Part shown: piece after piece, positions 718 through 49,499 of the stretch
Layout: each line of letters starts with the position of its first letter
Position numbering within the stretch: the first letter of the stretch is position 1
Source of the DNA: Accumulibacter sp.
GTDB lineage: Bacteria; Pseudomonadota; Gammaproteobacteria; Burkholderiales; Rhodocyclaceae
NCBI RefSeq assembly: GCF_023806565.1
Contig: NZ_JAMTDV010000102.1
Span: forward strand, 35,379-99,378
Direction: 5' to 3'
DNA length: 64,000 nucleotides
The notes under the pieces: generated by a model
What the model saw: the letters and a program-made list of their open reading frames with translations, nothing else
Told to the model about the DNA's origin: nothing
Database searches by the model: none
Made by a program: the position numbers and the translations under genes

Positions 718-1887
718 GTGGACCAGATCATGGTGTTTTTGCAGGCCTTGCTCGACCAGACCGGGGCGGTGCATTTCTCGTTTGGCAACCTGATCATGAT
801 CATCGTCGGATCGACCATGATCTACCTCGCCATCACCAAGCATTACGAACCGTTGCTGCTGGTGGGCATCGGCTTCTCGTGCATCGTTGCCAACGTCCCC
901 GGGCCACCTGACGACGTTCCTGGCGGGCAGGCGATTTCGGCGCTGCTCTACGTCGTCAAGGAGGGTGGTCTGTTTCACTACGCCTATGAGGGTGTGGCGA
1001 AACTGATCATCCCGCCACTGATCTTCCTTGGCGTCGGCGCTATGACCGACTTCGGTCCGATGATTGCCAATCCCAAGCTGGTGATTCTCGGCGCTGGCGC
1101 GCATCTGGGCATCTTTGTTGCACTGATCCTCGCCAAGCTGCTCGGCTTCAGCTTGGCGGAGGCCGGCGCGATCGGCATCATCGGTGGGGCCGACGGACCG
1201 ATGGCGATCTTCGTCACGGTGAAGCTGGCGCCGCATCTGCTCGGCCCGATTTCGGTGGCCGCCTATTCCTACATGGCGCTGATGCCGATGATTCAGCCGC
1301 CCGTGATGCGCCTGCTGACCACCAAGGCAGAGCGCCAGATCGGCATGGCGCAGTCGCGCAAGGTGACCAAGCAGGAAAAGATCGCTTTCCCGGTAATCAT
1401 CGCGATCATCGTCAATCTGTTCTTTCCGCCGGTCGCACCACTGATTACCATGCTGATGCTTGGCAACCTGCTCAAGGAAGTCGGCGTTACGGACCGCCTG
1501 TCGAAGACCGCTGCCGGCGGGCTGATGAATGTGATCATCATCATCCTCACCGTGGCGATCGGTTCGACCATGGCCGCAGACAAATTCCTGACGCTGCAGA
1601 CGCTCGAAATCGTCGTCCTGGGCTTGGTCGCCTTCATTTTCGGCACCGGATCGGGAGTGGTGACCGCGAAAGTCATGAACCTCTTCCTCAAAACCAAGAT
1701 CAACCCGCTGATCGGCTCGGCCGGCATCGCCTCGGTGCCCATCGCGGCACGCGTTTCGCACATCGTGGCGTACAAGGAAAACCCGAAGAACCTCCTGATC
1801 TACCACGCGATGGGGCCAAACCTGGCCGGGGTATTCGGGACAGCGATTTCAGGCGGGATCATGCTCGCGCTGATCGGCGTATCGTGA
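718..1887 (+). CDS. Na+-translocating decarboxylase, beta subunit (OadB/GcdB/MmdB/MadB family)
   Basis: This 389-residue polytopic membrane protein matches the carboxyltransferase-coupled sodium pump family. Decarboxylation of a biotin-bound carboxyl group drives Na+ export across the inner membrane. Family features visible are the GFSCIVANVP segment, the GAIGIIGGADGPMAIFVT stretch, and the GSAGIASVPIAARVSH and YHAMGPNLAGVFGTAISGG blocks near the C-terminus. Length equals the usual size. A GTG start at 718 is chosen because an AGGAGG sits just upstream; an ATG at 730 is possible. The gamma/delta subunit follows 49 bp later, but no alpha (carboxyltransferase) or biotin carrier gene is in the window. 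The substrate (oxaloacetate, methylmalonyl-CoA, glutaconyl-CoA or malonate) therefore cannot be assigned. Confidence 0.9.
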   Translation: MDQIMVFLQALLDQTGAVHFSFGNLIMIIVGSTMIYLAITKHYEPLLLVGIGFSCIVANVPGPPDDVPGGQAISALLYVVKEGGLFHYAYEGVAKLIIPPLIFLGVGAMTDFGPMIANPKLVILGAGAHLGIFVALILAKLLGFSLAEAGAIGIIGGADGPMAIFVTVKLAPHLLGPISVAAYSYMALMPMIQPPVMRLLTTKAERQIGMAQSRKVTKQEKIAFPVIIAIIVNLFFPPVAPLITMLMLGNLLKEVGVTDRLSKTAAGGLMNVIIIILTVAIGSTMAADKFLTLQTLEIVVLGLVAFIFGTGSGVVTAKVMNLFLKTKINPLIGSAGIASVPIAARVSHIVAYKENPKNLLIYHAMGPNLAGVFGTAISGGIMLALIGVS

Positions 1888-1936
1888 TTCGCGTGCGTAC
1901 GGCACCTGTTCCTTCCCAACGAGGAGACCGAGCGAA

Positions 1937-2332
1937 ATGAATCCAATCATCCCTGACACCCTGGAAGGCGCGCTGATCCTCAGCCTGATCGATTTTTTCC
2001 TGAGCTTCGTGGTGATTTCGTTCATCGGCGTCGTGCTCGCCGGCTTTCCCCTGCTCAATCGCATCGGAGACTGGGTCGCGGCGCGGGCCGCGGTGCCCAC
2101 GCCGACTGCCAAGAAGGCTGCGCCGCTTCCACCGCCGCAACCACCGCCGGCGCCGATTGCCGATCAGGAGATCCCCATCGAGGATGTGGTCGCCATTGCC
2201 GCTGCGATTGCGGCGATGGTCGGCGAACACCGCATTCTGCACATCGAGCCCCAGCAACGCAGCGGGGAATGGAGCACGGCTGGCAGACTGGAGCATCATC
2301 ACTCGCACCTGCCGACGCGCCAGAAGCACTGA
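1937..2332 (+). CDS. Na+-pump decarboxylase gamma/delta subunit (OadG-like)
   Basis: A 131-residue protein with a single N-terminal membrane span (about residues 10-42), then an Ala/Pro-rich linker (PLPPPQPPPAPI) and a hydrophilic C-terminal tail ending in a His-rich segment (LEHHHSHLPTRQKH). This is the layout of the small anchoring subunit of biotin-dependent sodium-pump decarboxylases, which ties the carboxyltransferase or biotin subunit to the membrane beta subunit. GAGGAG lies 10 nt before the ATG. It directly follows the beta subunit and is surely co-transcribed. The short size and low-complexity linker make the family call depend mostly on context. Confidence 0.72.
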   Translation: MNPIIPDTLEGALILSLIDFFLSFVVISFIGVVLAGFPLLNRIGDWVAARAAVPTPTAKKAAPLPPPQPPPAPIADQEIPIEDVVAIAAAIAAMVGEHRILHIEPQQRSGEWSTAGRLEHHHSHLPTRQKH

Positions 2333-2403
2333 GTCTCGCCCGCGCGCCTTGTCTCCCAGAGACCGCCCGCGTCGTGCCGGAGCACTCAGCTTGGGTCAGC
2401 GGA

Positions 2404-3756
2404 TCAGCGTGAACGCGCCAGATCGAAGTCCGCCGTATTGCGTTCGTCGATGAACAGGCGGGGCGGCTCGGGTGGCTCGCCGTTGCGGCAGGTGACCACG
2501 ACGTTGGCCAGCACCTGCTTTTTCTGCAGCACTTCGACGGCGCAGCGACCGTAGACGCTTTCGATCGTGGCCAGCAGGTTGCGCGAGTAAGGGGTGGCGA
2601 GCGCACTGTCGAGGATCAGATTGGCGATGAGCAAACCGTCGGGATCGAGCACGCGCCGCGTTGCCTGCCAGAATTCGCGGGTGACCAGATGCCCCGGAAT
2701 CGACGAATGCGCACTGTAGACGTCCACCAGCACTGCCGCAAAGCGCTGCGAGGTTCGGATCAGAAAGCTGCGGGCGTCATCGGCGATGAAGTCGCCGCGC
2801 GCCGCTGCGTGCAGAAAGTGCTTTTCGGCGATGTCCCGCACCGCCGGGTCGATATCGACATAAGTGTAGTGGTTGCTCGGCTCGCGGTGCGACAGAGTGA
2901 ACCCGCCGGCGCCCAGGACCAGAATCCGGCGGTCGCGGAAGCCCATTTCATCGAGCAGCAGACTGCGGATGTGGCGAATGTAGCGCGCGTAGCGCGGCGG
3001 TTCGGATTCGTCGATCAGCGAGGCATACGAGCTGTTGTTCTTCAGAGCTCGCCCGTTGGCTGCGCCTTCGTAGTTGGCCGGCACCACCAGATAACTGGCG
3101 TACGCGGTTTCGATCTCCGGGCGCAGCCAGGAGTTGACGCCGACGGTGAGCAGCATGACGCTCAGGCCACCTGCTGTCGTCATCCAGCCGCGCCCGCGCA
3201 GCAGCATGTAGCCGATCGCCAGGCAGATTCCGCAGAGCGCCACTGCAGCCGCCACCCCAAGCCACTGCATGACAAGGAGCGACAAGGAGAGCGAGCCGAG
3301 GAACGAGCCGAGTGTCGAGTAGTAGAGTGCCCGGCCGCTGGCCTCTCCGACGCGTTCGTGCTGCAGCAGGTTGCTGAGGATCGGGACGGTTTGGCCGAGC
3401 AGCCAAGCGATCGGGCCGAGCACGCCGATGATGAACCCGAGATAGGCGATTTCCGGCGGATTCAGCTTGTCAAACAGGAGGTCGACGCTTACCCCCGACA
3501 GCCCGGTTCCGGTCAGCAGCGCGGCGATCAGGAAATTCCTGGCGACGACTTCGCGAAAATCCTCGGCGACGCGCGCGCCGGCGTGGTAACCGAGTGCCAG
3601 CGCCAGCAGAAAGAAGCCGATGGTAGGGGCGGTGACGACGATCGAGCTGCCCATGTGCGGGACCAACTGGCGCAGGGCGATGATCTCGGCGCCGAGCGAG
3701 CAGAAGCCCTCGATGAAGACGACCGTAAAGACCGGGAATCGTGGCATGGCGGGCAT
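2404..3756 (-). CDS. Membrane-anchored spermidine-synthase-like protein
   Basis: 450 residues. The N-terminal 200 or so hold six or more membrane spans (starting VFTVVFIEGFCSLGAEIIAL). The C-terminal half is a Rossmann methyltransferase-like domain of the spermine/spermidine synthase fold (RRILVLGAGGFTLS, then YTYVDIDPAVRDIAEKHF and a DARSFL motif). Such fused proteins are widespread, but aminopropyltransferase activity has rarely been shown for them, so the substrate is unknown. No polyamine genes are next to it. It converges with the decarboxylase gamma subunit. Confidence 0.75.
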   Translation of the reverse strand: MPAMPRFPVFTVVFIEGFCSLGAEIIALRQLVPHMGSSIVVTAPTIGFFLLALALGYHAGARVAEDFREVVARNFLIAALLTGTGLSGVSVDLLFDKLNPPEIAYLGFIIGVLGPIAWLLGQTVPILSNLLQHERVGEASGRALYYSTLGSFLGSLSLSLLVMQWLGVAAAVALCGICLAIGYMLLRGRGWMTTAGGLSVMLLTVGVNSWLRPEIETAYASYLVVPANYEGAANGRALKNNSSYASLIDESEPPRYARYIRHIRSLLLDEMGFRDRRILVLGAGGFTLSHREPSNHYTYVDIDPAVRDIAEKHFLHAAARGDFIADDARSFLIRTSQRFAAVLVDVYSAHSSIPGHLVTREFWQATRRVLDPDGLLIANLILDSALATPYSRNLLATIESVYGRCAVEVLQKKQVLANVVVTCRNGEPPEPPRLFIDERNTADFDLARSR

Positions 3757-3832: not shown

Positions 3833-4735
3833 TCAGGAACCGACGGCCCGGTTTGCCAGCTGGTCCGGGGCATCGCCAGCCGGTCGCGACGAGTCCGCGC
3901 CGCTCACGCACGACAGAAATTCTGGAGGGATCTGCAGGCGGTCGAGCAACGTTTGCCGATCGATGTGCAACAGTTTCTCGATCGCCGAGAAATCGTCTGA
4001 CAGGGCCGGATCGGTCCAGCCGTCGATCGAGTGACGGGCGAGGCAGACTGCCAGCTTGACGTTCCGCACCCTGGCCAGTTGGGCGTTGTTGTCGTCCATC
4101 ATGGCGATCAGCAGTTCGGGCAGATGCCAGCTGCGGCACAGCACCAACTGCAGCTCGATCAGCGGGAAGCCAAGTGCCGCCTGCTGCGCGCTGGCGCTGC
4201 GCAGTGTCCGGTCGGCCTGCAGGCGCGCGCGGATCGCGGTGGCCAACTGTGGGGCAAAACACCACAGCAGAATCTCGGCGATGTCGTGCAACAGTGCCGC
4301 CAGCGCAACTTCCTCGATGTTCATGTCGTGACGAGCGAATGCCCAGTCGTGCGCGTAGCGCGAGGCGCGTTGCGCGCGCAGGATCACCTGCAGCACGCCG
4401 AGCAGGGCTTGTGGTTGCTCGGCGAGCAGGCTCTCCAGGGTGAGCGGCTGGTCGAACCTCCGAAAAAACGGGTCGACGCCGAGCATCATCACCGCGCTGG
4501 CGATGTTGGTGATGTCGCTCCGCAGGCGGCTGCTGCCGACGGTATGCGTCAGCAGACGCAGGGCCATCAACGGATCCTGGAGGACGATGTCGGTGATGTC
4601 ACGGCCGCTGATCCGGTCCGCATTCCGGCGCGCCTGCTCGAGACGGCGTGCCGTCTGGCGCAGGATCGGCATTTCGCAGCCGCTGAGGAAAGTCACCCAG
4701 CCTGCCAGACCGTCCGGGGTTGGCTTGTCGAGCAT
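3833..4735 (-). CDS. HDOD domain protein
   Basis: 300 residues. The body matches the HDOD domain, an HD-related output fold found in bacterial signalling proteins. Visible are an N-terminal helical part with LSGCEMPILRQTARRLEQAR, DITDIVLQDPLMALRLLTH, and the central NIEEVALAALLHDIAEILL, where an H-D pair is retained. HDOD proteins usually act as protein-binding regulators and not as phosphohydrolases. The reading frame extends upstream into the neighbouring pseudouridine synthase, so the ATG at 4735, preceded by AGACAGG, is taken as the start. Confidence 0.78.
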   Translation of the reverse strand: MLDKPTPDGLAGWVTFLSGCEMPILRQTARRLEQARRNADRISGRDITDIVLQDPLMALRLLTHTVGSSRLRSDITNIASAVMMLGVDPFFRRFDQPLTLESLLAEQPQALLGVLQVILRAQRASRYAHDWAFARHDMNIEEVALAALLHDIAEILLWCFAPQLATAIRARLQADRTLRSASAQQAALGFPLIELQLVLCRSWHLPELLIAMMDDNNAQLARVRNVKLAVCLARHSIDGWTDPALSDDFSAIEKLLHIDRQTLLDRLQIPPEFLSCVSGADSSRPAGDAPDQLANRAVGS

Positions 4736-4865
4736 CGAGCCTGTCTCATGGGGGCGCCGAAGGAACGTACCGGGCGGGGCGATCCTCCGAGTGGGTCGTG
4801 CCAACGATGGTAGCCGTGGCGCCGCTGCCGTGCAAGTACCTGTTCCGGGCCGTCGGTCGCCGACA

Positions 4866-6146
4866 TCAGAAGCGCTCGTCGGGCCGCAGGTAGCGCCATT
4901 GACCGGAAGGCAGCTGGCCAAGAGAAACACTGCCAATGCGCACGCGTTTGATCGTCGCCGCCTTTGTGCCGACCAGTTCGCACATCCGCTGAATCTGTTG
5001 TTTGCGGCTTTCATGCAGGACGAAGCGCAGGAGCTGCGTGCCGAGCCAGGAAACCTGCGCTGGCCGCAGCTTGACTCCGTCCAGTGAGAGGCCGTACCGG
5101 AGTCGTTCCAGCGCGTCTGCCGGCAGCTTGCCCTCGATACGCACGTGGTATTCCTTCTCAAGTTTCGCGTCGCCGCCAGTTACGCGGCGGGCCACGCTGC
5201 CTTCGTGGGTGAACACGAGCATGCCAGCCTCGTCGGCGTCGAGCCTGCCGGCAGGCGCCAGACGGCGGAGATGCGACGACTGGAAGCGCCGCCCACTACT
5301 GTCTTCCGTCCAATGATTGTCGGGCCGGATCAACTGGGCGACGCCGCTACGATCGTCCTCCTGCGGCACCGGGCCGGCAGCGTGGGGTTTGTTGTAGAGG
5401 ACGGTGACGCTTTCGCTGTGGTGGCGGATCGCTGCATCCTTGATGCGGATCGTGGCTTGCGGGTTTACCCTGGCGCCAAGCCGTGCGACCACCTCTCCGT
5501 CGACGCTGACCCAGCCGTTCTCGATCCACTCGTCGGCCTGGCGTCGTGAACACGCTGCCAATTCGCTTACCAGCTTCGCCAACCGTGGTGATTCCTTCGC
5601 CAGTCCGCGCGTGACGGCAACTGCATTGCCCGGTGTGCTGGCGGCCACTTGCTCTGCTGACGGTGTTTCCGTCGCCAGATCACCTCGCGCACGCGCCGCA
5701 AGCGGCGAGGTTTGCGTGCGCGGCGCCGGCAGCGAGGCGCGTGCGCCGGTGCTGCGGGCAACGCCGCGCGGAGGGTGCAACTTTGCCGGCTTGACCGATG
5801 GCTCGGGGCAGGCCGGTTCGCAGGAGGTTCCTGTGCGGGCATGTGCGCCGCTTGCGTCCGGCGCAGCCTCTGCCGGCAGGTCGCCATTCGCCTTGCTGCG
5901 CGAGGGCGCTGGACGCGCAGCCGATTTTTCACGGCGGCCGGCGGTTCGTGAATCGTCGTCGCAGCGCGGAGCGTCGATCGTCTCCGGCATCGGCGCAGCG
6001 GACGGCTCTGCTGGCACGACCGTACGCCCGCGTCCGGCCTGCCTGGCGTTCGGTGCGCCGCCACGAATCGGCTTGCGCACCGCGGCCCGCGGGTCTCGCC
6101 CAGTGGCGGCAGGTTTCTTGGGCAACTTGAGCGTCGGGCGAGGCAT
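4866..6146 (-). CDS. RNA pseudouridine synthase, RluF/RsuA-RluB family, with long basic N-terminal extension
   Basis: The C-terminal 240 residues are a standard RsuA/RluB-type enzyme that isomerises uridine to pseudouridine in rRNA. An S4 RNA-binding domain (LAKLVSELAACSRRQADEWI, then NGWVSVDGE) leads into a catalytic domain with the GRLDADEAGMLVFT motif carrying the nucleophilic Asp, and with HESRKQQIQRMCELVG. The S4 sequence resembles RluF (23S U2604) most. Residues 1-185 are an unusual Ala/Pro/Arg-rich, probably disordered tail. The ATG at 6146 starts the protein MPRPTLKLPKK; longer readings run into the divergent promoter region. Confidence 0.85.
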   Translation of the reverse strand: MPRPTLKLPKKPAATGRDPRAAVRKPIRGGAPNARQAGRGRTVVPAEPSAAPMPETIDAPRCDDDSRTAGRREKSAARPAPSRSKANGDLPAEAAPDASGAHARTGTSCEPACPEPSVKPAKLHPPRGVARSTGARASLPAPRTQTSPLAARARGDLATETPSAEQVAASTPGNAVAVTRGLAKESPRLAKLVSELAACSRRQADEWIENGWVSVDGEVVARLGARVNPQATIRIKDAAIRHHSESVTVLYNKPHAAGPVPQEDDRSGVAQLIRPDNHWTEDSSGRRFQSSHLRRLAPAGRLDADEAGMLVFTHEGSVARRVTGGDAKLEKEYHVRIEGKLPADALERLRYGLSLDGVKLRPAQVSWLGTQLLRFVLHESRKQQIQRMCELVGTKAATIKRVRIGSVSLGQLPSGQWRYLRPDERF

Positions 6147-6406
6147 GGCGTGGCTTTCCGCGGGGTGGGGGATCAGGGGCGGACAGTTTACGCCAGAAAT
6201 GGCGGTTTCCTCCTGCGGAATGGTGTCGCGACGCTGTCCCGGAATGCCCGGCTGCTCCTTGCGCAGCGCCCCCTGCACGTGTTGCCGGCCGCCGTTTCTG
6301 GTACGCTGCGCAGCGAGGGGGGAGAACATGATGATCGGTCGTTGACCCGACGCGTTCCGTTCTCTGGAGATCTGCGCTGCCCAACTGCCCAGGATAGACT
6401 GCCGTC

Positions 6407-8371
6407 ATGCCACAGTATCCAAAAAGCGCCATCGGCAATCTCGCCGATCTCGAGGAGGGACAGATCGCCCTGTCGGGATTCATCGTACAGCACGACAAAG
6501 GGCTCTACGTAAGAATCCCGCAAATCGGATCCGAGAATGATTTCCCGGAATTCGTCAATCGCGTGGCCGCTTCCGGCCTCTACTTCCGGGAACTCGACTA
6601 TCTGCAGTTCTCTTCCCTGCTCTACGACGAGCCGGCCAGTCGCAGCCCCGGAGCCGGCGACGAGGTGTTCCTGGCAGCCGATATCACTGCTTTTCGGCCA
6701 GAGCGCCAGGCTCTCTATCAGGATTTCTCGATCGACAACGGCGAGGCAAGCTATCTCTTCGAGCCGCTCTATGGCACCGAAGGGGGCGACGACCAAGCAT
6801 GGATCAAGGACGGCGAGGACGGTCATCAGGCGTCCCCGGGCAGAGCGCGCCGCCCGTTGGAGATCCGAATCTACCTAGATATCGACGAATTCATCATCAA
6901 CGCCTGGAACAAGGGGGTCCGTTTCGGTATCGATCTTGCCGCTCTGGGCGAAGCGATCGAAGTCGACAGGCCGGAACGGCGCGTGGTCGCGCGCCGGCGG
7001 CCGTATCTTCCCGGCAAGGACGCCGAAATCATCGAGCAGGCGCCTGGACTGCATCGGAACAATGCGCCGCGCCAACTGGTCGGTGGCCGCTTCGATCTGC
7101 GCCAGTTCGAGACACGTTATCCGCAGGTCACCGCCGGCCTCCGCCTGGTGAGGAAGACGCCGCGCACGCTCGGTGTGGATGGGCGCGACCTCAGCGGTGA
7201 GATTCTGCCCGCACCTCTGCCCAAAGATTTCGACCTGGAGACGCTGGCCGGTCCGGGAACCCGGGTCAGCCGGGAACAGGGTGGCGATTACCTGCTCTCG
7301 TCGGTCTACGGATTCCTCAATATCGACCGGCGCAGCAACCAGTTTTCGGTGGTCGACAAGATCGTCAGCCATGAGGGGGTAAGTGCCCGCACGACCGGTG
7401 ACCTCACGCTCACCGGTGACGTCTATGAGCAGCACGGCGAGATTCAGGAACATCGCATAGTGCAGTGTCGCAGTATCACTGCGTACGCGGATGTCTTTGG
7501 CAAGATCGTTTCCGGCGGCGGAGTCGTCCACCTGCGGCACAACCTCGTTGGCGGCAGCGCCAGCAACGAGGATGGCGACATCGTGGTCGACGGGCGGGCT
7601 TCGGCATCGACACTGGTCGCGCAGCAAGGATGCATCACGGTAAAGCGGGCGGACAACTGTGTGATCGTTGGTCGTCGGGTCGTTGTCGGGCAGGCGACGA
7701 ATTGCGACATCGTAGCCGACGAGCTGAGTCTGGATCTCTCGGAAGCCTGCGCGCTCGCCGGCAGGAGCATCCGCGTCCGGGTGAGCCGTTCGCGCTGGGA
7801 GGTAGAGAGCGTGCTGCTGCTTCTGCTGCCGGATCTCTCGGGCCATGCGCTGCAACTCGCCGCGCTCGAAAAGAAACGCGTGGCACTGCGCAAGGCGCTT
7901 GCCGATCAGCGTGCCCGGATGGGCGCGCTGCAGGGCGAGAAAGACGTCGCGAGCTACCTGTCGCTGGGCGGCAAGCTGCGCCGTCACGAAGTCACGCTGA
8001 GCCCGGAGCAGCAACTCGGCTGGCGCCGTCTCTCGGCGTTGGTCGCTCCGGCCTTGCGGACCTTGTCGCAACTGACCGATACGATCCGCGAGCATGACGA
8101 ACAACTGGCGGCACTGGACGCGCAGGTCGAGGAACTCCTGGCAGCCAGAAGACGGTGCTGCAGCGGTCTCTCCTGCACGATCGACCGGGTCGAAGGGGAA
8201 ACGCGGGTCGATACCCTGTCGCTTCGTCTATCCGATACACCGCTTGGCGATCTGCCGAGCAAGGAATTGAGAATTCGCCTGCGTCGGACCGACGCCGCCA
8301 GGAGGCGGCTCTTCAGCGGAGCAAGCGGCCAGTTCTCCTGGACTTACGACAACCAGTCGGCTGCCAGCTAG
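6407..8371 (+). CDS. FapA/DUF342 family protein
   Basis: 654 residues matching the DUF342 (FapA) family: an N-terminal domain, then a long repetitive beta-helix-like region. The helix region includes EGVSARTTGDLTLTGDVYE, and VVDGRASASTLVAQQGCITV followed by NCVIVGRRVVVGQATNCDI. A helical, probably coiled-coil segment (about residues 490-580) and a small C-terminal domain follow. Family members are linked to flagellar assembly, polymer formation and localisation, but no biochemical role is settled. It stands alone, divergent from the pseudouridine synthase and convergent with cphA. Confidence 0.75.
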   Translation: MPQYPKSAIGNLADLEEGQIALSGFIVQHDKGLYVRIPQIGSENDFPEFVNRVAASGLYFRELDYLQFSSLLYDEPASRSPGAGDEVFLAADITAFRPERQALYQDFSIDNGEASYLFEPLYGTEGGDDQAWIKDGEDGHQASPGRARRPLEIRIYLDIDEFIINAWNKGVRFGIDLAALGEAIEVDRPERRVVARRRPYLPGKDAEIIEQAPGLHRNNAPRQLVGGRFDLRQFETRYPQVTAGLRLVRKTPRTLGVDGRDLSGEILPAPLPKDFDLETLAGPGTRVSREQGGDYLLSSVYGFLNIDRRSNQFSVVDKIVSHEGVSARTTGDLTLTGDVYEQHGEIQEHRIVQCRSITAYADVFGKIVSGGGVVHLRHNLVGGSASNEDGDIVVDGRASASTLVAQQGCITVKRADNCVIVGRRVVVGQATNCDIVADELSLDLSEACALAGRSIRVRVSRSRWEVESVLLLLLPDLSGHALQLAALEKKRVALRKALADQRARMGALQGEKDVASYLSLGGKLRRHEVTLSPEQQLGWRRLSALVAPALRTLSQLTDTIREHDEQLAALDAQVEELLAARRRCCSGLSCTIDRVEGETRVDTLSLRLSDTPLGDLPSKELRIRLRRTDAARRRLFSGASGQFSWTYDNQSAAS

Positions 8372-43205: not shown

Positions 43206-44534
43206 ATGGCCGGCATTTTCATCAACTATCGACGAGAGGATTCCCAGGGCTCGGCGGGGCGTCTGCAACAGACACTGCGCGCGCACTTTGGAGCTGATTT
43301 CGTCTTCATGGACGTGACCGCGATCGCCCCTGGTGCCAACTTCCCCAGCGAGATCGATGCCCGCCTACAGTGCTGCGACGTATTCCTCGCCGTCATCGGC
43401 AGACATTGGCTGACCATGCTCAAGCAGCGGGAGGGAGATCCGCGCGACTTTGTGCACATCGAAATGGCGGCTGCTCTGCAAAGGCAGATCCTGCTGATTC
43501 CCTGCCTCGTCGAAGGCGCCGCGCTGCCGGGCGCGGACCAACTTCCGGACGATCTGACCGACCTCGCCTCGCGCAACGCCAAGGAGTTGCGCCATCTCAG
43601 TTGGGATGACGACTGCGCAAGCCTGATCAAGGCGATCGACGAGTATCTCTCTGTGCGCGGCGCGGCCGATACCTCACCCACTTGGCACCAGTGGCTGGAT
43701 CAAGCGAAAACGGGAATCACCAGAGCCTTCACGTACCGCGTTTTCGACAAGTTCGATGACGCACTGCCGGACTGGAAGAGTCTCGGGATGCCCAGAGCGC
43801 TGGACGAGGCCTTGGCGGCGCCTCCGCAGTCGGCCGGGCGCGAGACGTGTGAAGCCTTGTACCGGCTGGTCATCCAGATGTGCCGGGTGCTGCAGGCAGA
43901 AGACGTCACGCTCACCGCCGGCGAAAGCAAGGAGGCACAGAAACGCCTCAAGGCCGCGATGGGCTGCGCAGCGCGGCTCTGTCTCGACCCCCTGCTCCGC
44001 AGTCGGCTGCGCCCCGCCCAATCTCCGGGCAGTTCCCGCCGCCTGAGCGCCCCGGCCAGTGAAATAGCCGGATCCACCTTGATCCATAGGGAGGAGCCAG
44101 ACAAGACTTGGGCGCTGCCGCAAACGGTTGGCCAGACCCCGCTCGAAGACAAAGCGGCGATTCCCATCACCGTGGAAACCGGGGACGAGGCTTCGACGCG
44201 GGAAAAGCTGGCCAAGGCCCTGGCGCGCCATACCTGGCCATTGGCGCCCGTGCCGGAACGTATCGACCCGACCACATGCGCGCGCCTGAGGGGTGAGAGC
44301 GACGTCGCAAGGGTGCGCGGTGAGGCATGCTACCTGGTACTGGACGGCAAGGAAGAGTCGGCACTCAGGCCCAGCCTCGAACAATGGATCGCCGACGAAC
44401 TCAGAACGGAAGTCCTGGTTCTGCAGAAAGGCGAGACGTCGAATCCGCTGTTTCTCTATGACGAAACGACGCTCCTCACTCTGATTGCACATTTCTTGCG
44501 TCTGCTCGAAGGACCCGAATGGAATCCCAGATGA
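43206..44534 (+). CDS. TIR-domain protein, first gene of a TIR / AAA+ / FGE operon
   Basis: 442 residues. Residues 1-150 are a bacterial TIR domain: [19 protein letters not shown] at the start, then [32 protein letters not shown], and [14 protein letters not shown], where Glu86 occupies the catalytic position of NAD-cleaving TIR enzymes. [10 protein letters not shown] and [20 protein letters not shown] complete the fold. Residues 150-442 match nothing I recognise: a helical part and a small C-terminal alpha/beta part ([20 protein letters not shown]). TIR domains in bacteria usually act as effectors that destroy NAD or make signalling nucleotides after infection is sensed. The stop overlaps the next gene by 16 nt. 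Confidence 0.87.
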
Positions 44535-45484
44535 CCCTGCCTGCCTACCCCGACAAGATCGATTTCGTCGCAATGGGCGCGTGGCCGGCCAGCCGGCACC
44601 TCTTCGACACCGACCAGAAGAGCGCGTTGCGCGCTGCCGAAGCCGCCGGCCGGCCGCTGCTGGTACGCGGCGACCCGGGAACCGGCAAGAGCCAGCTCGC
44701 GCAGGCTGCTGCCGCCGCCACCGGACGTCTGTTTCTGGCGATCGTCGTCGACGCGCGCAGCGAGGCCAGCGACCTGCTGTGGCGTTTCGATGCTGTCGCC
44801 CGCCTGGCCGACGCGCACCTCGCGGCCGTCCCGGGCAGCGACACCCCGAAGGATCTGAACGCCGGCCGCTACGTCGAACCGGGTCCGATGTGGTGGGCCT
44901 TTGACTGGGATGACGCCGCCAAACAATTGGAGCACAGCCGTGTCGGCGGCGTCGTTCCCGATCTGCCGGAGTCAGACTGGACGCCGAGGCGCGGCACCCT
45001 TCTCCTGATCGACGAAATCGACAAGGCCGAAGCCGATTTGCCCAATGGCCTGCTCGAGGCGCTGGGTAACGGGCGTTTCTCCGTGCCGCCGCTCGGCAAG
45101 GTGGTGGCGCGGCCGGCCGACGTGCCGCCGCCGTTGGTGATCGTCACCTCCAACGAAGAACGGGAGTTGCCCGCCCCCTTCCTGCGCCGCTGCTTGGTAT
45201 TGACCCTGAAGCTGCCGAAATTGCACCGCGAATTGACGGATTACCTCGTCGAGCGTGGCGCGCTCCACTTCCCGGCGATGTACCGGGACTATCCTGACGC
45301 CCTCACCAAAGCCGCCGCGGCGTTGATCGCCTACCGCAACAAGGCCGCCGAAGAGGGTGTCTATGCGCCCGGTCTTGCCGAGTATCTCGACTTGCTGCGC
45401 GTGCTTGATCGGATCGGCGGCGATCCCGCCGGACCGCTCGGGGAGTTCCACGCCCTCTTTTTCGAGAAACAGCAGCCGGCATGA
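44519..45484 (+). CDS. MoxR-like AAA+ ATPase
   Basis: 321 residues. Walker A is GDPGTGKS at 51-58, Walker B LLLIDEIDKAE at 161-171, sensor 1 VIVTSNEERELP near 210, and an arginine pair at 223-224 (FLRRC). The family is the MoxR-type AAA+ ATPases, which remodel or activate partner proteins, often von Willebrand-A proteins. The ATG at 44519 has GAAGGA 5 nt upstream; the in-frame ATG at 44531 would give a classic ATGA junction. It is placed between the TIR effector and the FGE-domain protein and overlaps both, so the three proteins are probably made in fixed ratio and act together. Confidence 0.88.
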   Translation: MESQMTLPAYPDKIDFVAMGAWPASRHLFDTDQKSALRAAEAAGRPLLVRGDPGTGKSQLAQAAAAATGRLFLAIVVDARSEASDLLWRFDAVARLADAHLAAVPGSDTPKDLNAGRYVEPGPMWWAFDWDDAAKQLEHSRVGGVVPDLPESDWTPRRGTLLLIDEIDKAEADLPNGLLEALGNGRFSVPPLGKVVARPADVPPPLVIVTSNEERELPAPFLRRCLVLTLKLPKLHRELTDYLVERGALHFPAMYRDYPDALTKAAAALIAYRNKAAEEGVYAPGLAEYLDLLRVLDRIGGDPAGPLGEFHALFFEKQQPA

Positions 45485-48366
45485 GCGCGCGTGTGTCGAG
45501 CGAGACCCTGCCGCCACGCAAGACCTCGGTCGGTCCCGCCGACCTGCTCTGGCTGCTGCACACACAGCCGGCTGACGAGGTTCGCCGGGCCGCCTCATGC
45601 TTCGGATTCGTCTGGCCGGAGGCTTCCGGCGAGCCCCCCAACCGCTCACCCGAAACGCTGCCGAAACGCTTCAAGCCATCCGCGCCGCCTCCCGGCCGGC
45701 AACCGCTGCGCGCCAGCCAGTCTGCCGTCGTCGAACACCAGCGCTTCCGCGAGGAAGCTGCGTCGGCGAGCGGGGCAGCCGCAGTTGACGATGGTGAACT
45801 TTATGTTTCCGTGGGAGCCGTTGCCGCTCCTGTTCGCACCCGCATTCCCTTGAGTCCACCAAGCCGGCTGGCGGCCTTTCTGCACCAAACGCTGCGCAGC
45901 GGGCGGCCAGGCCGCACGGTCGACCTGCCGCGCCTGCTCGCTGCGTTGGTTCGCCTTCGCCTGCCGCCCCGCCTGCCGCTCCAGTGTCGACCGCGCTGGA
46001 GCGCGGAAGCGGCCCTGATCCTCGACCTTTCGCTGGCCGCTTTCCCGCTGCGCGACGACCTGATCGAACTCGCCGAGCAGGCGCACGCGCTATCGGCGGG
46101 TTCCCTGCCGATCTTCTGCCACGATTCGGCGCAGGGATGGCTGCAGCGCTTGCCCGGCCGTGCGCCCGTCTGGCACCGGGTTGATGCGAGCGCGCCAGGG
46201 CGCGCCCGGCACTGGCTGGTTGCCGGCGAAGCGGGCAATCCGGCCGCTCACCCGGGCCGCGGCGCGGTCTGGCCGCTGCGCTGGCAGGTGCATCTCGCCG
46301 CTGGCGGTCGGCTGACGATATTGACCGGGCGTACGGGTGCCGGTGGCGCGGCGCGCCTGCCGCGCGACGCGGCGGCCGTCGTCTGGGAGTACGGCCAGCG
46401 TTTGCGCAGCGGTCGCGCCATCGGTCATCCGGGTAACGACACGGCCGCCACTGGCAGGCTGCTGGCGGCGCTGTCGCTGGCGGTGGTCGTCGAGCCCGCC
46501 CTGCTGCGCGAAATCCGGATCGCGCTCGGCCTGCCGACTGCCTGCGAGCTGGCCGCCTGGAGCCACCCAGACAGCCAACCTTGCCTGCTCGGGATGCAGA
46601 TTCGGCGCGAACGACTCGCCGATTACCGTGATCGCTTGCGCAGCGAAATGCCAGCGCTCCGGCAGCGCTTGGCTGCGATCATTGCCGCTCATCATGCCGG
46701 CGAGTCCCGTCTGATCCGGCTCGAAGAGGCCGCGCTGGCAGCGGATCTGGCGGATTTTGACGCCGCGCAGGCGCATGCCGGCTGGGCCCAGGCCGTGCGT
46801 ACCTTGCGCCGCGAGCCGCAGGGAGGGGCGGCGCGAGAACTCGCCGCCTACCTTCGCCGCACCGGTTTGCGAGCGCACGAAAGCCTCTGGCGATCGATTC
46901 CCAACCTGGCCGAGGCCTATGTGATTGCTCGCCGCGAAGATCTCGAAGCCGGCGCATCCATTCCGGCGGGATTGCCTGCCAATGTTCTTGAACGGCATCT
47001 GACGGCGCCGGGGCAGGCGGGAGAAGTACGCCGCTGGTGGCTGGTGCAGACTGCGGCAGATCTGGTGGTCACGTCGGAAGCGCCACAACTCGGGCAGTTT
47101 CTGCTGGCCGAGTGCGACGCGGCCGTCGGCTTTGATCTGCAGACACCGGCACACGCGCGTCAGTGGCACCCCCTGCGCGGCGGGAGCGAACGCGTCGACA
47201 TGCTGCAGGCCGGTGGCGGGCCGTGGGTGCTGCGCAGCGCGCGGGAAAGGATCGTCGTCGCCGAAGTGCCACGGCCTTCCTGGGCGCTCGCCTGGGGCCG
47301 CGACCGGCAGGGCCTGTACGCTGTCCCGCCATCGTTGGCGGGGTGTGCGGTGAAGCTCTACTGGAACTGGGATGAAGCGGTACCGGCTCTCTGGCCGCCG
47401 TCGGCGCGAGGTTTCCGCTCGCCGCGACAGCAAGTTGCGCCTGGCTGTTGGCAAGGCGCCGACCTCGAATACGGCCTTTACCTCGACGTCGACTTCGCCG
47501 GCGTCGTGCAGCGCTTCCGCTGGATCGAGCCGGGCGAGTTCCTGATGGGATCGCCAGCCGACGAGCCGGGCAGGCGTGACGACGAAGGGCCGCGCCACCG
47601 GGTACGCCTTACGGCTGGCTACTGGCTGGCCGAGACGGCGTGCACGCAGGCCTTGTGGCAGGCGGTGATGGGCGACAACCCGAGTCTATTCAAGGGCGAT
47701 CCGGAGAAACCGGTGAATTCGGTGAGCTGGGACGACGTGCAGGTTTTCCTGCAACGGGTACAGGCGAGGCTCGCCGGTGTGACGGTGCAATTGCCGAGCG
47801 AAGCCGAATGGGAGTACGCGTGCCGCGCCGGCAGTGAAGGGGCGTACGCTTGGGGCGAAACGATCACCCATGAGCAGGCGATTTACGAAGAGAAGAAAGG
47901 CGGAGCAGTGCCGGTCAAATCGTATCCGCCGAACGCCTGGGGTCTCTACGAAATGCACGGCAACGTCTGGGAGTGGTGTGCCGATGGGAAACGGCGGTAC
48001 GACGACATGCTGCAGGAGAATCCGCGGGGTCCCGAAGATCAGGAAGCGCCGCGCGTCGTGCGTGGCGGCTCGTGGGACGTCGACGCCGGTTGGCTTCGCT
48101 CCGCCCGCCGCTTCTACTGGCGCCGCGGCTACCGCCTCGACTTCCTGGGTTTCCGCTTTTCCCTGAGGTCCACGAGTCAGGTCGCTGGCGCGGAGCGCCG
48201 GCGACAGGAGCCGGTGGCCTTGGAAGGGCCGCCCGTTTCCGCGTCCTTGCCGGGACGGGAAGGCGGTGCTGCTTCGGCGGAGGCCGAAGCAGCACCGCGC
48301 GGCCTCGGCGGGCCGGCAGACAAGACCGTCAACCCGTCCCGGGGATCGCCGAAGAAGAGGAAATAG
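45481..48366 (+). CDS. Large FGE-sulfatase-domain protein carrying a DGR-type variable region
   Basis: 961 residues. Residues 1-670 are not assigned. Residues 1-115 are Pro/Arg-rich; a segment near 172-200 (WSAEAALILDLSLAAFPLRD) vaguely resembles a degenerate vWA domain; a helical region (about 345-470) follows. Residues 676-900 are an FGE-sulfatase domain of C-type-lectin fold (FRWIEPGEFLMGSP, LPSEAEWEYACRAGSE, YEMHGNVWEWCADG, RVVRGGSW). Residues 866-888 correspond to the hypervariable core shared with the downstream paralogue. Proteins with this fold are common targets of diversity-generating retroelements, where the variable residues form a binding surface. The start overlaps the AAA+ stop (ATGA). 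After the domain the frame reads through two hairpins to a low-complexity tail. Confidence 0.85.
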   Translation: MSARVSSETLPPRKTSVGPADLLWLLHTQPADEVRRAASCFGFVWPEASGEPPNRSPETLPKRFKPSAPPPGRQPLRASQSAVVEHQRFREEAASASGAAAVDDGELYVSVGAVAAPVRTRIPLSPPSRLAAFLHQTLRSGRPGRTVDLPRLLAALVRLRLPPRLPLQCRPRWSAEAALILDLSLAAFPLRDDLIELAEQAHALSAGSLPIFCHDSAQGWLQRLPGRAPVWHRVDASAPGRARHWLVAGEAGNPAAHPGRGAVWPLRWQVHLAAGGRLTILTGRTGAGGAARLPRDAAAVVWEYGQRLRSGRAIGHPGNDTAATGRLLAALSLAVVVEPALLREIRIALGLPTACELAAWSHPDSQPCLLGMQIRRERLADYRDRLRSEMPALRQRLAAIIAAHHAGESRLIRLEEAALAADLADFDAAQAHAGWAQAVRTLRREPQGGAARELAAYLRRTGLRAHESLWRSIPNLAEAYVIARREDLEAGASIPAGLPANVLERHLTAPGQAGEVRRWWLVQTAADLVVTSEAPQLGQFLLAECDAAVGFDLQTPAHARQWHPLRGGSERVDMLQAGGGPWVLRSARERIVVAEVPRPSWALAWGRDRQGLYAVPPSLAGCAVKLYWNWDEAVPALWPPSARGFRSPRQQVAPGCWQGADLEYGLYLDVDFAGVVQRFRWIEPGEFLMGSPADEPGRRDDEGPRHRVRLTAGYWLAETACTQALWQAVMGDNPSLFKGDPEKPVNSVSWDDVQVFLQRVQARLAGVTVQLPSEAEWEYACRAGSEGAYAWGETITHEQAIYEEKKGGAVPVKSYPPNAWGLYEMHGNVWEWCADGKRRYDDMLQENPRGPEDQEAPRVVRGGSWDVDAGWLRSARRFYWRRGYRLDFLGFRFSLRSTSQVAGAERRRQEPVALEGPPVSASLPGREGGAASAEAEAAPRGLGGPADKTVNPSRGSPKKRK
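48046..48173 (+). repeat. DGR-type variable region VR1
   Basis: 128 nt. The flanks (48046-48075 and 48145-48173) are identical to those of the second copy at 49303-49430. The 69-nt core (48076-48144) differs from it at 17 positions. Fourteen of these are first or second positions of codons ending in C in both copies. The other three cluster at codons 5-6. This is the pattern left by adenine-specific mutagenesis of AAC-type template codons. The 3' flank would be the initiation-of-homology site. Confidence 0.85.
48181..48205 (+). repeat. Hairpin 1 after VR1
   Basis: 11-bp stem (one T/G mismatch) with 3-nt loop GGA, 7 nt after the shared VR block. The second VR has an equivalent hairpin with loop AGA. 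Confidence 0.7.
48263..48298 (+). repeat. Hairpin 2 after VR1
   Basis: Perfect 16-bp stem (GCGGTGCTGCTTCGGC and its complement) with loop GGAG. It lies inside the 3' end of the coding frame. No T tract follows, so it is not an ordinary terminator. Confidence 0.8.
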
Positions 48367-48369
48367 GCG

Positions 48370-48594
48370 ATGAGCTTGCGTTTTTTTGCGATTCCGGCGT
48401 GCAACCCTGGAGCTGCCGAGGCCGAACTCAACGGCCTGCTCGCCGCCAGCCGCGTCTTGAGCGTCGAGCGCCAGTTGGTCCTGGCCGGCGCAAGCCATCG
48501 TGCCGGCGAACTGCAAGGCGCCCGGGGCGCCGGTAGGCGCGGAAGAACCGTACCGACAGCCCCTCGGGTCGCCGCCTCGCACGGGATGCCTTGA
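48370..48594 (+). CDS. Short ORF, probably a truncated DGR accessory protein
   Basis: 74 residues. The first 35 (MSLRFFAIPACNPGAAEAEL, then LLAASRVLSVERQLV) look like a real, conserved N-terminus. From memory they resemble the start of small proteins (MSL- or HRDC-type) encoded next to some DGR reverse transcriptases. The remaining residues are Arg/Ala/Gly-rich and look like out-of-frame or random sequence, and the protein is far shorter than such partners. I therefore suspect a remnant. The ATG lies 3 nt after the previous stop, with GAGG 10 nt upstream, and the next gene starts 3 nt after its stop, so it could still couple translation. Confidence 0.45.
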   Translation: MSLRFFAIPACNPGAAEAELNGLLAASRVLSVERQLVLAGASHRAGELQGARGAGRRGRTVPTAPRVAASHGMP

Positions 48595-48597
48595 GCG

Positions 48598-49491
48598 ATG
48601 GCGGCGTTTCCCTCGGATCCACCGTTCCCGCCCGAAGCGCAGCGGCGTCCGCCGGTCTTTCCGCTCCGCTGCGCGTCGGCCTGGGGCGACGACGCCCATG
48701 GCCTGTGGGTCGAGGTCGCGATTGCCGGCGTTGTCCAGTGTTTCCGCTGGATCGAACCCGGGGAGTTCCGGATGGGATCGCCGTCGGGCGAACCGGAGCG
48801 CTTGGAGGACGAAGGGCCACGTCACGGGGTGCGCCTGACCGCCGGCTACTGGCTGGCCGATACGGCGTGCACGCAGGCACTGTGGCAGGCGGTGATGCGC
48901 GACAACCCGAGCCATTTTCGGGAGAATCCGGCGAACCCGGTCGAACAGGTATCCTGGGACGATGTGGATGCTTTCCTGCAGCGGGTCGAAGAGATGCTGC
49001 CGGGAGTCGAAGTGCGCTTGCCGAGCGAGGCCGAGTGGGAGTACGCGTGTCGCGCGGGCAGCGACACGCCGTTCCACTTCGGCGAGACGATCAGCCCGGA
49101 CCAGGCGAACTACAACGGGGATCATCCCTACGCCGGGGGCGAGAAGGGCCTGTATCGCGGGAAGACCGTGCCGGTGAAATCCTTCGCGCCGAACGCCTGG
49201 GGGTTGTACGAAATGCACGGCAATGTCTGGGAATGGTGCGCCGACGGTCTGCGCGAGTACGACAGCGAGATGCACGAGGATCCGCGTGGCCCGGAGGGCG
49301 ATGCGCCGCGCGTCGTGCGTGGCGGCTCGTGGTTCGACGACGCCGGGAGTCTTCGCTCCGCCTGCCGCGACGGCTGGCCCCGCGACTTCCGCCTCCACGA
49401 CCTGGGTTTCCGCTTTTCCCTGAGGTCCACCAGCCAGGCGGCGAACGCAGAGCGTTCGCCGGTAGGCGCGCTGCTCACGCGGGAGGCGTGA
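48598..49491 (+). CDS. Stand-alone FGE-sulfatase-domain protein carrying a DGR-type variable region
   Basis: 297 residues, essentially a single FGE domain from about residue 48 (FRWIEPGEFRMGSPSGEPER) through LPSEAEWEYACRAGSD, KSFAPNAWGLYEMHGNVWEW and RVVRGGSWFDDAGSLRSACR. It is a close paralogue of the C-terminal domain of the 961-residue protein but lacks its long N-terminal part. Residues 246-268 are the hypervariable core. The role is inferred to be ligand recognition and not formylglycine formation. The gene follows the short ORF with a 3-nt gap; its own ribosome-binding site is weak, so coupling is likely. The stop codon (49489-49491) lies inside the second hairpin. Confidence 0.85.
   Translation: MAAFPSDPPFPPEAQRRPPVFPLRCASAWGDDAHGLWVEVAIAGVVQCFRWIEPGEFRMGSPSGEPERLEDEGPRHGVRLTAGYWLADTACTQALWQAVMRDNPSHFRENPANPVEQVSWDDVDAFLQRVEEMLPGVEVRLPSEAEWEYACRAGSDTPFHFGETISPDQANYNGDHPYAGGEKGLYRGKTVPVKSFAPNAWGLYEMHGNVWEWCADGLREYDSEMHEDPRGPEGDAPRVVRGGSWFDDAGSLRSACRDGWPRDFRLHDLGFRFSLRSTSQAANAERSPVGALLTREA
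49303..49430 (+). repeat. DGR-type variable region VR2
   Basis: Second copy of the 128-nt block. Flanks 49303-49332 and 49402-49430 are identical to VR1, and core 49333-49401 is diverged. Sequence just outside the block is clearly less similar between the two genes, so the identity of the flanks is best explained by copying from one shared template. Confidence 0.85.
49439..49461 (+). repeat. Hairpin 1 after VR2
   Basis: Perfect 10-bp stem (CGGCGAACGC/GCGTTCGCCG) with 3-nt loop AGA, 8 nt after the shared VR block. Confidence 0.75.
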
Positions 49492-49499
49492 GCAGCGCG
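49467..49499 (+). repeat. Hairpin 2 after VR2
   Basis: Perfect 14-bp stem (CGCGCTGCTCACGC and its complement) with loop GGGAG, 5 nt after hairpin 1. It contains the stop codon of the gene. No T tract follows. Confidence 0.8.

Follow-up and report, generated by a model that had tools for sequence, protein, structure and literature searches.

Paired variable regions in an Accumulibacter operon, probably left behind by a two-target diversity-generating retroelement

Two FGE-fold genes and their paired variable blocks

The window, i.e., the whole 64,000-nt stretch of DNA analysed here (G000:C102:35379-99378), belongs to a draft Accumulibacter genome of 3.71 Mb in 139 contigs and encodes a TIR-domain protein, an AAA ATPase and two FGE-domain proteins, A and B, whose genes both retain full-length reading frames (Table 1). 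The layout is that of a MoxR-associated system by gene order and domains, with an ATPase directly upstream of a long target gene that is followed by a short second target, the ATPase being called MoxR-like from this layout (its Pfam class is AAA_5) and not by phylogeny. The TIR-domain protein shows weak similarity to Thoeris ThcB4/ThsB, below the cut-off. Both A and B match PF03781 and carry a variable region (VR) at the end of this domain, i.e., lectin/FGE-fold targets with a C-terminal VR are present. For gene B, the best match among solved structures is the Treponema denticola variable protein 1 (2y3c, E 2.1e-22), and the alignment of the two runs through the VR-bearing C-terminal stretch.

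Table 1 Features of the window discussed in the text
Feature	Position	Strand	Remarks
TIR-domain protein	43206..44534	+	PF13676; upstream of the ATPase
AAA ATPase	44519..45484	+	PF07728 (AAA_5); MoxR-like by layout; directly upstream of gene A
Target gene A, 961 aa	45481..48366	+	long N-terminus without Pfam hit; C-terminal FGE-sulfatase domain, residues 681-892
VR block of gene A (VR-A)	48046..48173	+	variable core 48076-48143; 17 differences from VR-B, all in the core; template adenine sites of relatives
Hairpin with GGA loop 3' of VR-A	48181..48205	+	11-bp stem, one mismatch; the 5 bp adjoining the loop are perfect
HRDC stub, first ~40 codons of a DGR HRDC accessory gene	48370..48489	+	92.5% identical over 40 residues to the G008 HRDC protein; PF00570 in the full protein
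Putative deletion junction GCCGGCG, 7-bp microhomology	48484..48490	+	found at both breakpoints of the intact G008 locus
Remnant of the template-to-gene-B spacer as in G008	48491..48597	+	window 48479-48758 vs. L096 (reverse complement) 7822-8131, 73.0% over 311 columns
Target gene B, 297 aa	48598..49491	+	FGE-sulfatase domain, residues 51-272; little beyond this domain
VR block of gene B (VR-B)	49303..49430	+	variable core 49333-49400; 17 differences from VR-A, all in the core; template adenine sites of relatives
Hairpin with AGA loop 3' of VR-B	49439..49461	+	10-bp perfect stem
Second hairpin 3' of VR-B	49467..49499	+	14-bp stem, loop GGGAG

The original prediction, made from the letters of the window, had described two 128-nt blocks that differ at 17 positions, and a new comparison of the two copies confirmed both the blocks and the count. 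Of the dimensions given for them, one 30-nt flank stands, but the other flank measures 30 nt and not 29, and the core between them 68 nt and not 69. With codons numbered from 0 at the block start, 14 of the 17 changes affect one of the first two bases of codons whose third base is C in both copies, as had been noticed, and the remaining three (codon 14 position 3, codon 15 positions 1 and 3) form the cluster that had been placed at codons 5-6, i.e., codons 14-15 in our numbering. About a dozen variable residue sites had been expected, and VR-A and VR-B indeed differ in 12 codons, 11 of them in amino acid; as many as 16 of the 17 changes fall in codons with an altered amino acid. The perfect flanks of the VRs stand out because genes A and B are otherwise only 77.7% identical upstream of the block (483 of 622 aligned bases, 66 gap columns excluded), with no identical run longer than 19 nt, and just downstream of it 25 of 38 bases agree. 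At 77.7% identity, the chance of 60 matching flank bases would be ca. 3e-7, a crude figure that ignores local conservation. Judging by these alignments, A and B are ordinary paralogues outside the blocks.

Complete loci in relatives and the probable scar in the window

When the block DNA was queried at E <= 1e-8 over 81 genomes, matches were obtained in 13 of them, i.e., in the own genome and in 12 of 27 others of the same genus, and in none of the 53 genomes outside the genus. The complete loci of these relatives share one gene order (AAA ATPase, long FGE target A, HRDC, reverse transcriptase (RT) of the diversity-generating retroelement (DGR) type, template (TR), short FGE target B), and at seven loci (G008, G013, G015, G017, G019, G025, and G009) three copies of the block occur in a row, the middle one being AAC-rich and reading as a template. 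At G008:C9, the clearest case, 18 of the 24 adenines of this template are changed in one target and 16 in the other, with 0 of 95 other positions differing in either, and the templates of G019, G017, and G009 are likewise adenine-specific, with 0-2 other sites differing from the targets. Between target A and the template, G008 encodes an HRDC protein (156 aa) and an RT frame (342 aa) in which LPIGALTSQ and YMDD occur, the ends of both being taken from open frames instead of annotated genes. The best sequence match of this RT is PDB 8ub7, which we take to be the BPP-1 DGR RT and do not use as proof. The SQ dipeptide is a published mark of DGR RTs (PMC3521204).

No RT match was obtained in the window, i.e., a DGR RT with the SQ motif and YxDD is absent from the locus, as is a complete Avd/HRDC accessory gene, the HRDC accessory being reduced to 40 codons. 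Genes A and B are adjacent, separated only by this HRDC stub fused to the post-template spacer, and from ca. 48479 onwards the window sequence tracks G008 DNA that is located 3' of the template. By comparison with G008, the missing stretch amounts to ca. 1.6 kb (roughly 6239-7825 of the reverse complement of L096), which in that genome holds the remaining part of the HRDC gene, the entire RT frame (6600-7625), and the template (about 7647-7771). Such an arrangement supports the view that the window locus is a degenerate DGR, whose two targets would have been diversified from one template and then stranded. Judged by its ATPase (75% at the amino acid level), G022:C71 is one of the nearest relatives, and it too has an HRDC stub, which ends at another point. 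The engine loss of the window may be independent of it, or it may be an older shared loss that was eroded further; because of this stub, the loss is possibly older than it looks.

How well the two blocks fit the lost template can be gauged with the G008 template as a stand-in, the window's own being absent: 12 of the 17 positions that differ between VR-A and VR-B are adenines in it and five are not, and these five must be explained, as far as the stand-in goes, by substitutions that came later or by a lost template unlike that of G008. Two of them are position 1 of codons 23 and 31, where both window copies end in C. In the eight compared templates codon 23 is mostly CAG or GAG and codon 31 mostly GAG, GAC, or CAC, and the lost template of the window may have had AAC at both. 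Another is position 1 of codon 20, a codon that reads ACC in the G017 template. The remaining pair falls at position 3 of codons 14 and 15, where G is present in every compared template codon but one, and would be due either to later substitutions or to an A there in the lost template.

Origin and present state of the variable regions

We consider it very probable that the blocks are VRs of a two-target, AAA/MoxR-associated DGR whose mutator was deleted. That they once were DGR targets is argued by the relatives, since the template there shows adenine-specific differences, and RT and TR lie between the orthologous targets. The original prediction held that both genes are, or recently were, targets of one DGR template, and its past tense is borne out by these relatives together with the scar. 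By analogy with the DGR family, an RT with its HRDC helper would have copied one template RNA while misreading adenines, and the cDNA would have overwritten the 3' ends of both FGE-fold genes, adenine-specific products of which are seen in the relatives. A deletion of ca. 1.6 kb at a 7-bp microhomology would, from the comparison with G008, have taken out the larger part of the HRDC gene together with RT and template. Given that both targets kept their open reading frames, the likely outcome would be two fixed sensors in a TIR/AAA conflict operon that could no longer be re-diversified in place. The window pair would thus be inactive at present and its receptors apparently frozen.

The own genome holds further DGR parts. 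A second DGR is located on contig C3 (L060, G000:C3:34000-50000), with a template at about 6835 (-) and VRs at about 5632 (+) and 7140 (-); 17 and 18 of 24 A sites are changed in these two VRs and 0 of 76 others in each, and the RT beside the template gives only a partial match. Contig C88 (L061, 1437-2096) carries a DGR with an HRDC gene, a template at about 2158 and VRs at about 695 and 3147. Only residues 6-126 and 239-328 of its RT frame give a match, the centre with the YMDD motif being absent, and the template of this DGR was paired with VRs on C88 and C75. RT pieces are present on both C88 and C3. On C18 (L059) a full-length RT (LPIGNLSSQ, YVDD) lies tail to tail with an FGE gene (551-1813 and 1878-3044), and no template for it was found in the 12 kb around it. 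The RT on C114 resembles, by eye, that of group II introns. A lone and more drifted VR of the window's class occurs at about 4734 on C126 (L062), where the matching frame of the gene shifts at the VR. Compared with the TRs of six relatives, it differs at 14-18 of 20-25 A sites and at 6-12 of 75-80 others, with 1-10 gap columns, and no RT, HRDC, or second block was found on this contig. With this drift, the frame shift, and the missing parts, C126 was dismissed as a template donor and appears to carry one more stranded VR.

A template matching both blocks had been proposed as a check on the own genome, and it was not found: BLAST at E <= 10 gave none in the own assembly, and a search for a diverged own template, with a pattern that left the variable sites free and allowed 3 mismatches, matched only the two blocks. 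In our reading the template is missing because the deletion removed it. A DGR RT had been suggested as another thing to look for, and it turned up outside the window, in full length and of the DGR type, on C18. This RT is one reason to consider continued diversification of the window pair in trans, with template and RT located at another site and either unassembled or helped by the C18 enzyme. The template could also sit elsewhere in the strain, unassembled in a draft of 139 contigs; contigs C88 and C75 begin within or beside DGR parts, and thus DGR regions do break this assembly. Diversification in trans is moreover published for Thiohalocapsa PB-PSB1 (PMC10907252). Such activity nevertheless appears unlikely, as neither search of the assembly recovered a template of the window's class, and a scan of seven stretches plus the window yielded no pairing of its blocks with the C3 and C88 templates, which had been considered as a source.

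It is also conceivable, and in our judgment quite improbable, that the deletion is a minority allele or a product of assembly and that most cells keep an intact HRDC-RT-TR cassette. Long reads did reveal intact alleles at disrupted DGR loci of PB-PSB1 (PMC10907252), and the genome studied here is a draft of many contigs. However, the junction shares just 7 bp, presumably too short for the usual repeat collapse, and since it is not placed at a long repeat, collapse by the assembler would be unlikely at this point. Ordinary drift between paralogues or gene conversion between two FGE genes, with no DGR involved, could be invoked because A and B are both FGE paralogues in a genome with 26 FGE-sulfatase matches. 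A missing template together with synonymous-rich drift had been named beforehand as what would speak for this explanation; the template is indeed missing, but the drift is not of that kind, as all 17 changes lie in the 68-nt core between identical flanks and nearly all of them (16) in amino-acid-changing codons. What decides the matter is that the relatives carry the template itself, with its adenine-specific differences, and on this ground we reject drift and conversion, which have next to no chance of being correct.

As a DGR that has probably lost its mutator, the window locus has several published counterparts. Its layout resembles that of the clade 5A MoxR-associated DGRs of the Thiohalocapsa PB-PSB1 DGR 8 type (Dore et al. 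2024, PMC10907252), with a MoxR-like ATPase directly upstream of a target whose long N-terminus has no predicted domains, a short second target consisting of the lectin alone, and a TIR gene nearby; the likeness is one of layout and not of an RT tree, and the window differs in lacking RT and TR and in having a readable loss junction. Passages of the same paper name Accumulibacter as having multiple related DGRs and describe degenerate DGR loci with missing parts and structural variants, and truncated RTs as well as Accumulibacter DGRs are mentioned in PMC3521204. The DGR of T. denticola also combines FGE-fold targets with an HRDC accessory (PMC4891356; TvpA structure 2y3c), and in 8 of the 17 isolates listed, targets occur without a TR or RT (PMC4891356). 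It belongs to a different phylum, whereas in the window both targets adjoined the lost engine and a scar remains. Nostoc all3226 is a target with remnant TR-VR homology and no RT nearby, for which removal of the engine after variant selection was suggested (PMC7517822); unlike the window genes, it is a cyanobacterial paralogue at a dispersed locus, and the passages on it describe no excision junction. Degenerate DGR loci and RT-less targets are already known, and the window is a well-resolved further case. Our limited literature search recognised no published description of this scar or of the GGA hairpin loop treated below.

Decay across the genus and hairpins behind the variable regions

A count over 28 genomes of the genus gave 18 places with an encoded RT that shares at least 50% identity with the G008 enzyme. 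Eleven of these RTs are near full length, ten with YMDD and one with YMDH (G020:C121), and seven are truncated, including an internal loss in G015, which is a single-contig genome. Elsewhere it is the HRDC gene that is damaged, by a stop in its frame in G013 and by an interruption in G025. Thus, intact, broken, and excised versions of one two-target DGR coexist in one bacterial genus. At loci with an intact RT (18 VRs, 9 loci), 7 of 1400 non-A template positions differ between template and target and there are no gaps, vs. 55 of 899 non-A positions and gaps in 10 of 12 VRs at loci with a broken or YMDH RT (12 VRs, 7 loci; Mann-Whitney p = 1.8e-4 per VR). G020:C121 was counted as broken although its sole VR there looks like another class, and with this VR removed the broken group shows 31 of 818 (p = 3.5e-4). 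As VRs of one locus are not independent, per-locus means were used as well, which gave p = 0.011 (9 vs. 6 loci, without G020). The aligner favours mismatches at template A, the test leaves out G012:C53 (one block only) and G003:C177, and the list of VR loci is not exhaustive, having been drawn up without G026:C109, G026:C70 (contig ends), G026:C2, G020:C22, G009:C1:1621481, and some weaker places.

According to these counts, divergence between templates and targets tends to accompany a broken RT. The near-perfect non-A match under an intact RT and the tendency to drift under a broken one offer a rough built-in clock, by which one could measure how quickly engines are lost and what becomes of frozen receptors. 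It is a clock that lags, since both C88 VRs are unchanged at non-A positions (0 of 75) although the RT there is broken, and the C3 VR pair is free of such differences next to an RT with a partial match only. A simple reading is also opposed by G013, where the RT is full length and yet 4 and 1 non-A differences occur.

On G027:C48 (L103, reverse complement, 3942-7649), A and B are joined in a single open frame 1236 codons long, which contains two VRs. No HRDC, RT, or template lies between A and B there, and no RT match was obtained in the whole G027 genome at E <= 1e-6. The fetched stretches of G027:C48, G022:C46, G022:C71, G020:C40, and G000:C126 contained no engine; G022:C71 has one VR and its short HRDC stub, with an N close by in the contig, and G020:C40 has one VR and a frame-shifted A. 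Some of these breaks may stem from errors in sequencing or assembly. The genus bears on the question of what favours the retention or the loss of immune-like hypermutation systems. We tentatively raise the doubtful idea that mutator loss is a recurrent, selected step in this genus, in which the DGR explores receptors, the engine is deleted, and useful variants are locked in. If this were true, the window would be a snapshot taken soon after such an event, and the double-lectin open frame without an engine in G027 would fit as well.

A GC-rich hairpin is present downstream of both window VRs and favours the DGR reading; the loop behind VR-B, AGA and not GGA, counts against it. Across the genus, a hairpin with a GGA triloop and a perfect stem of at least 5 bp within 110 nt 3' of the VR (G020 excluded) follows 27 of 29 VRs (L113-L142; 17 of 18 where the locus is intact, 10 of 11 where it is broken), vs. 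0 of 15 templates and 4 of 2000 random 110-nt pieces of the window. Phage DGRs have a hairpin 3' of the VR with a 4-nt GRNA loop and a 7-10 bp stem, which in BPP-1 is needed for efficient homing (PMC3240598). The hairpins described here are likewise GC-rich and placed just downstream of the VR; in contrast to the 4-nt GRNA loops of BPP-1 and other phage DGRs (PMC3240598), they mostly have a 3-nt GGA loop, and there are often at least two in a row. The GGA hairpin looks like the phage-type DGR element with a shorter loop, and by the same analogy it would have a role in homing here. It could also serve as a candidate marker for stranded targets that have no template or RT nearby.
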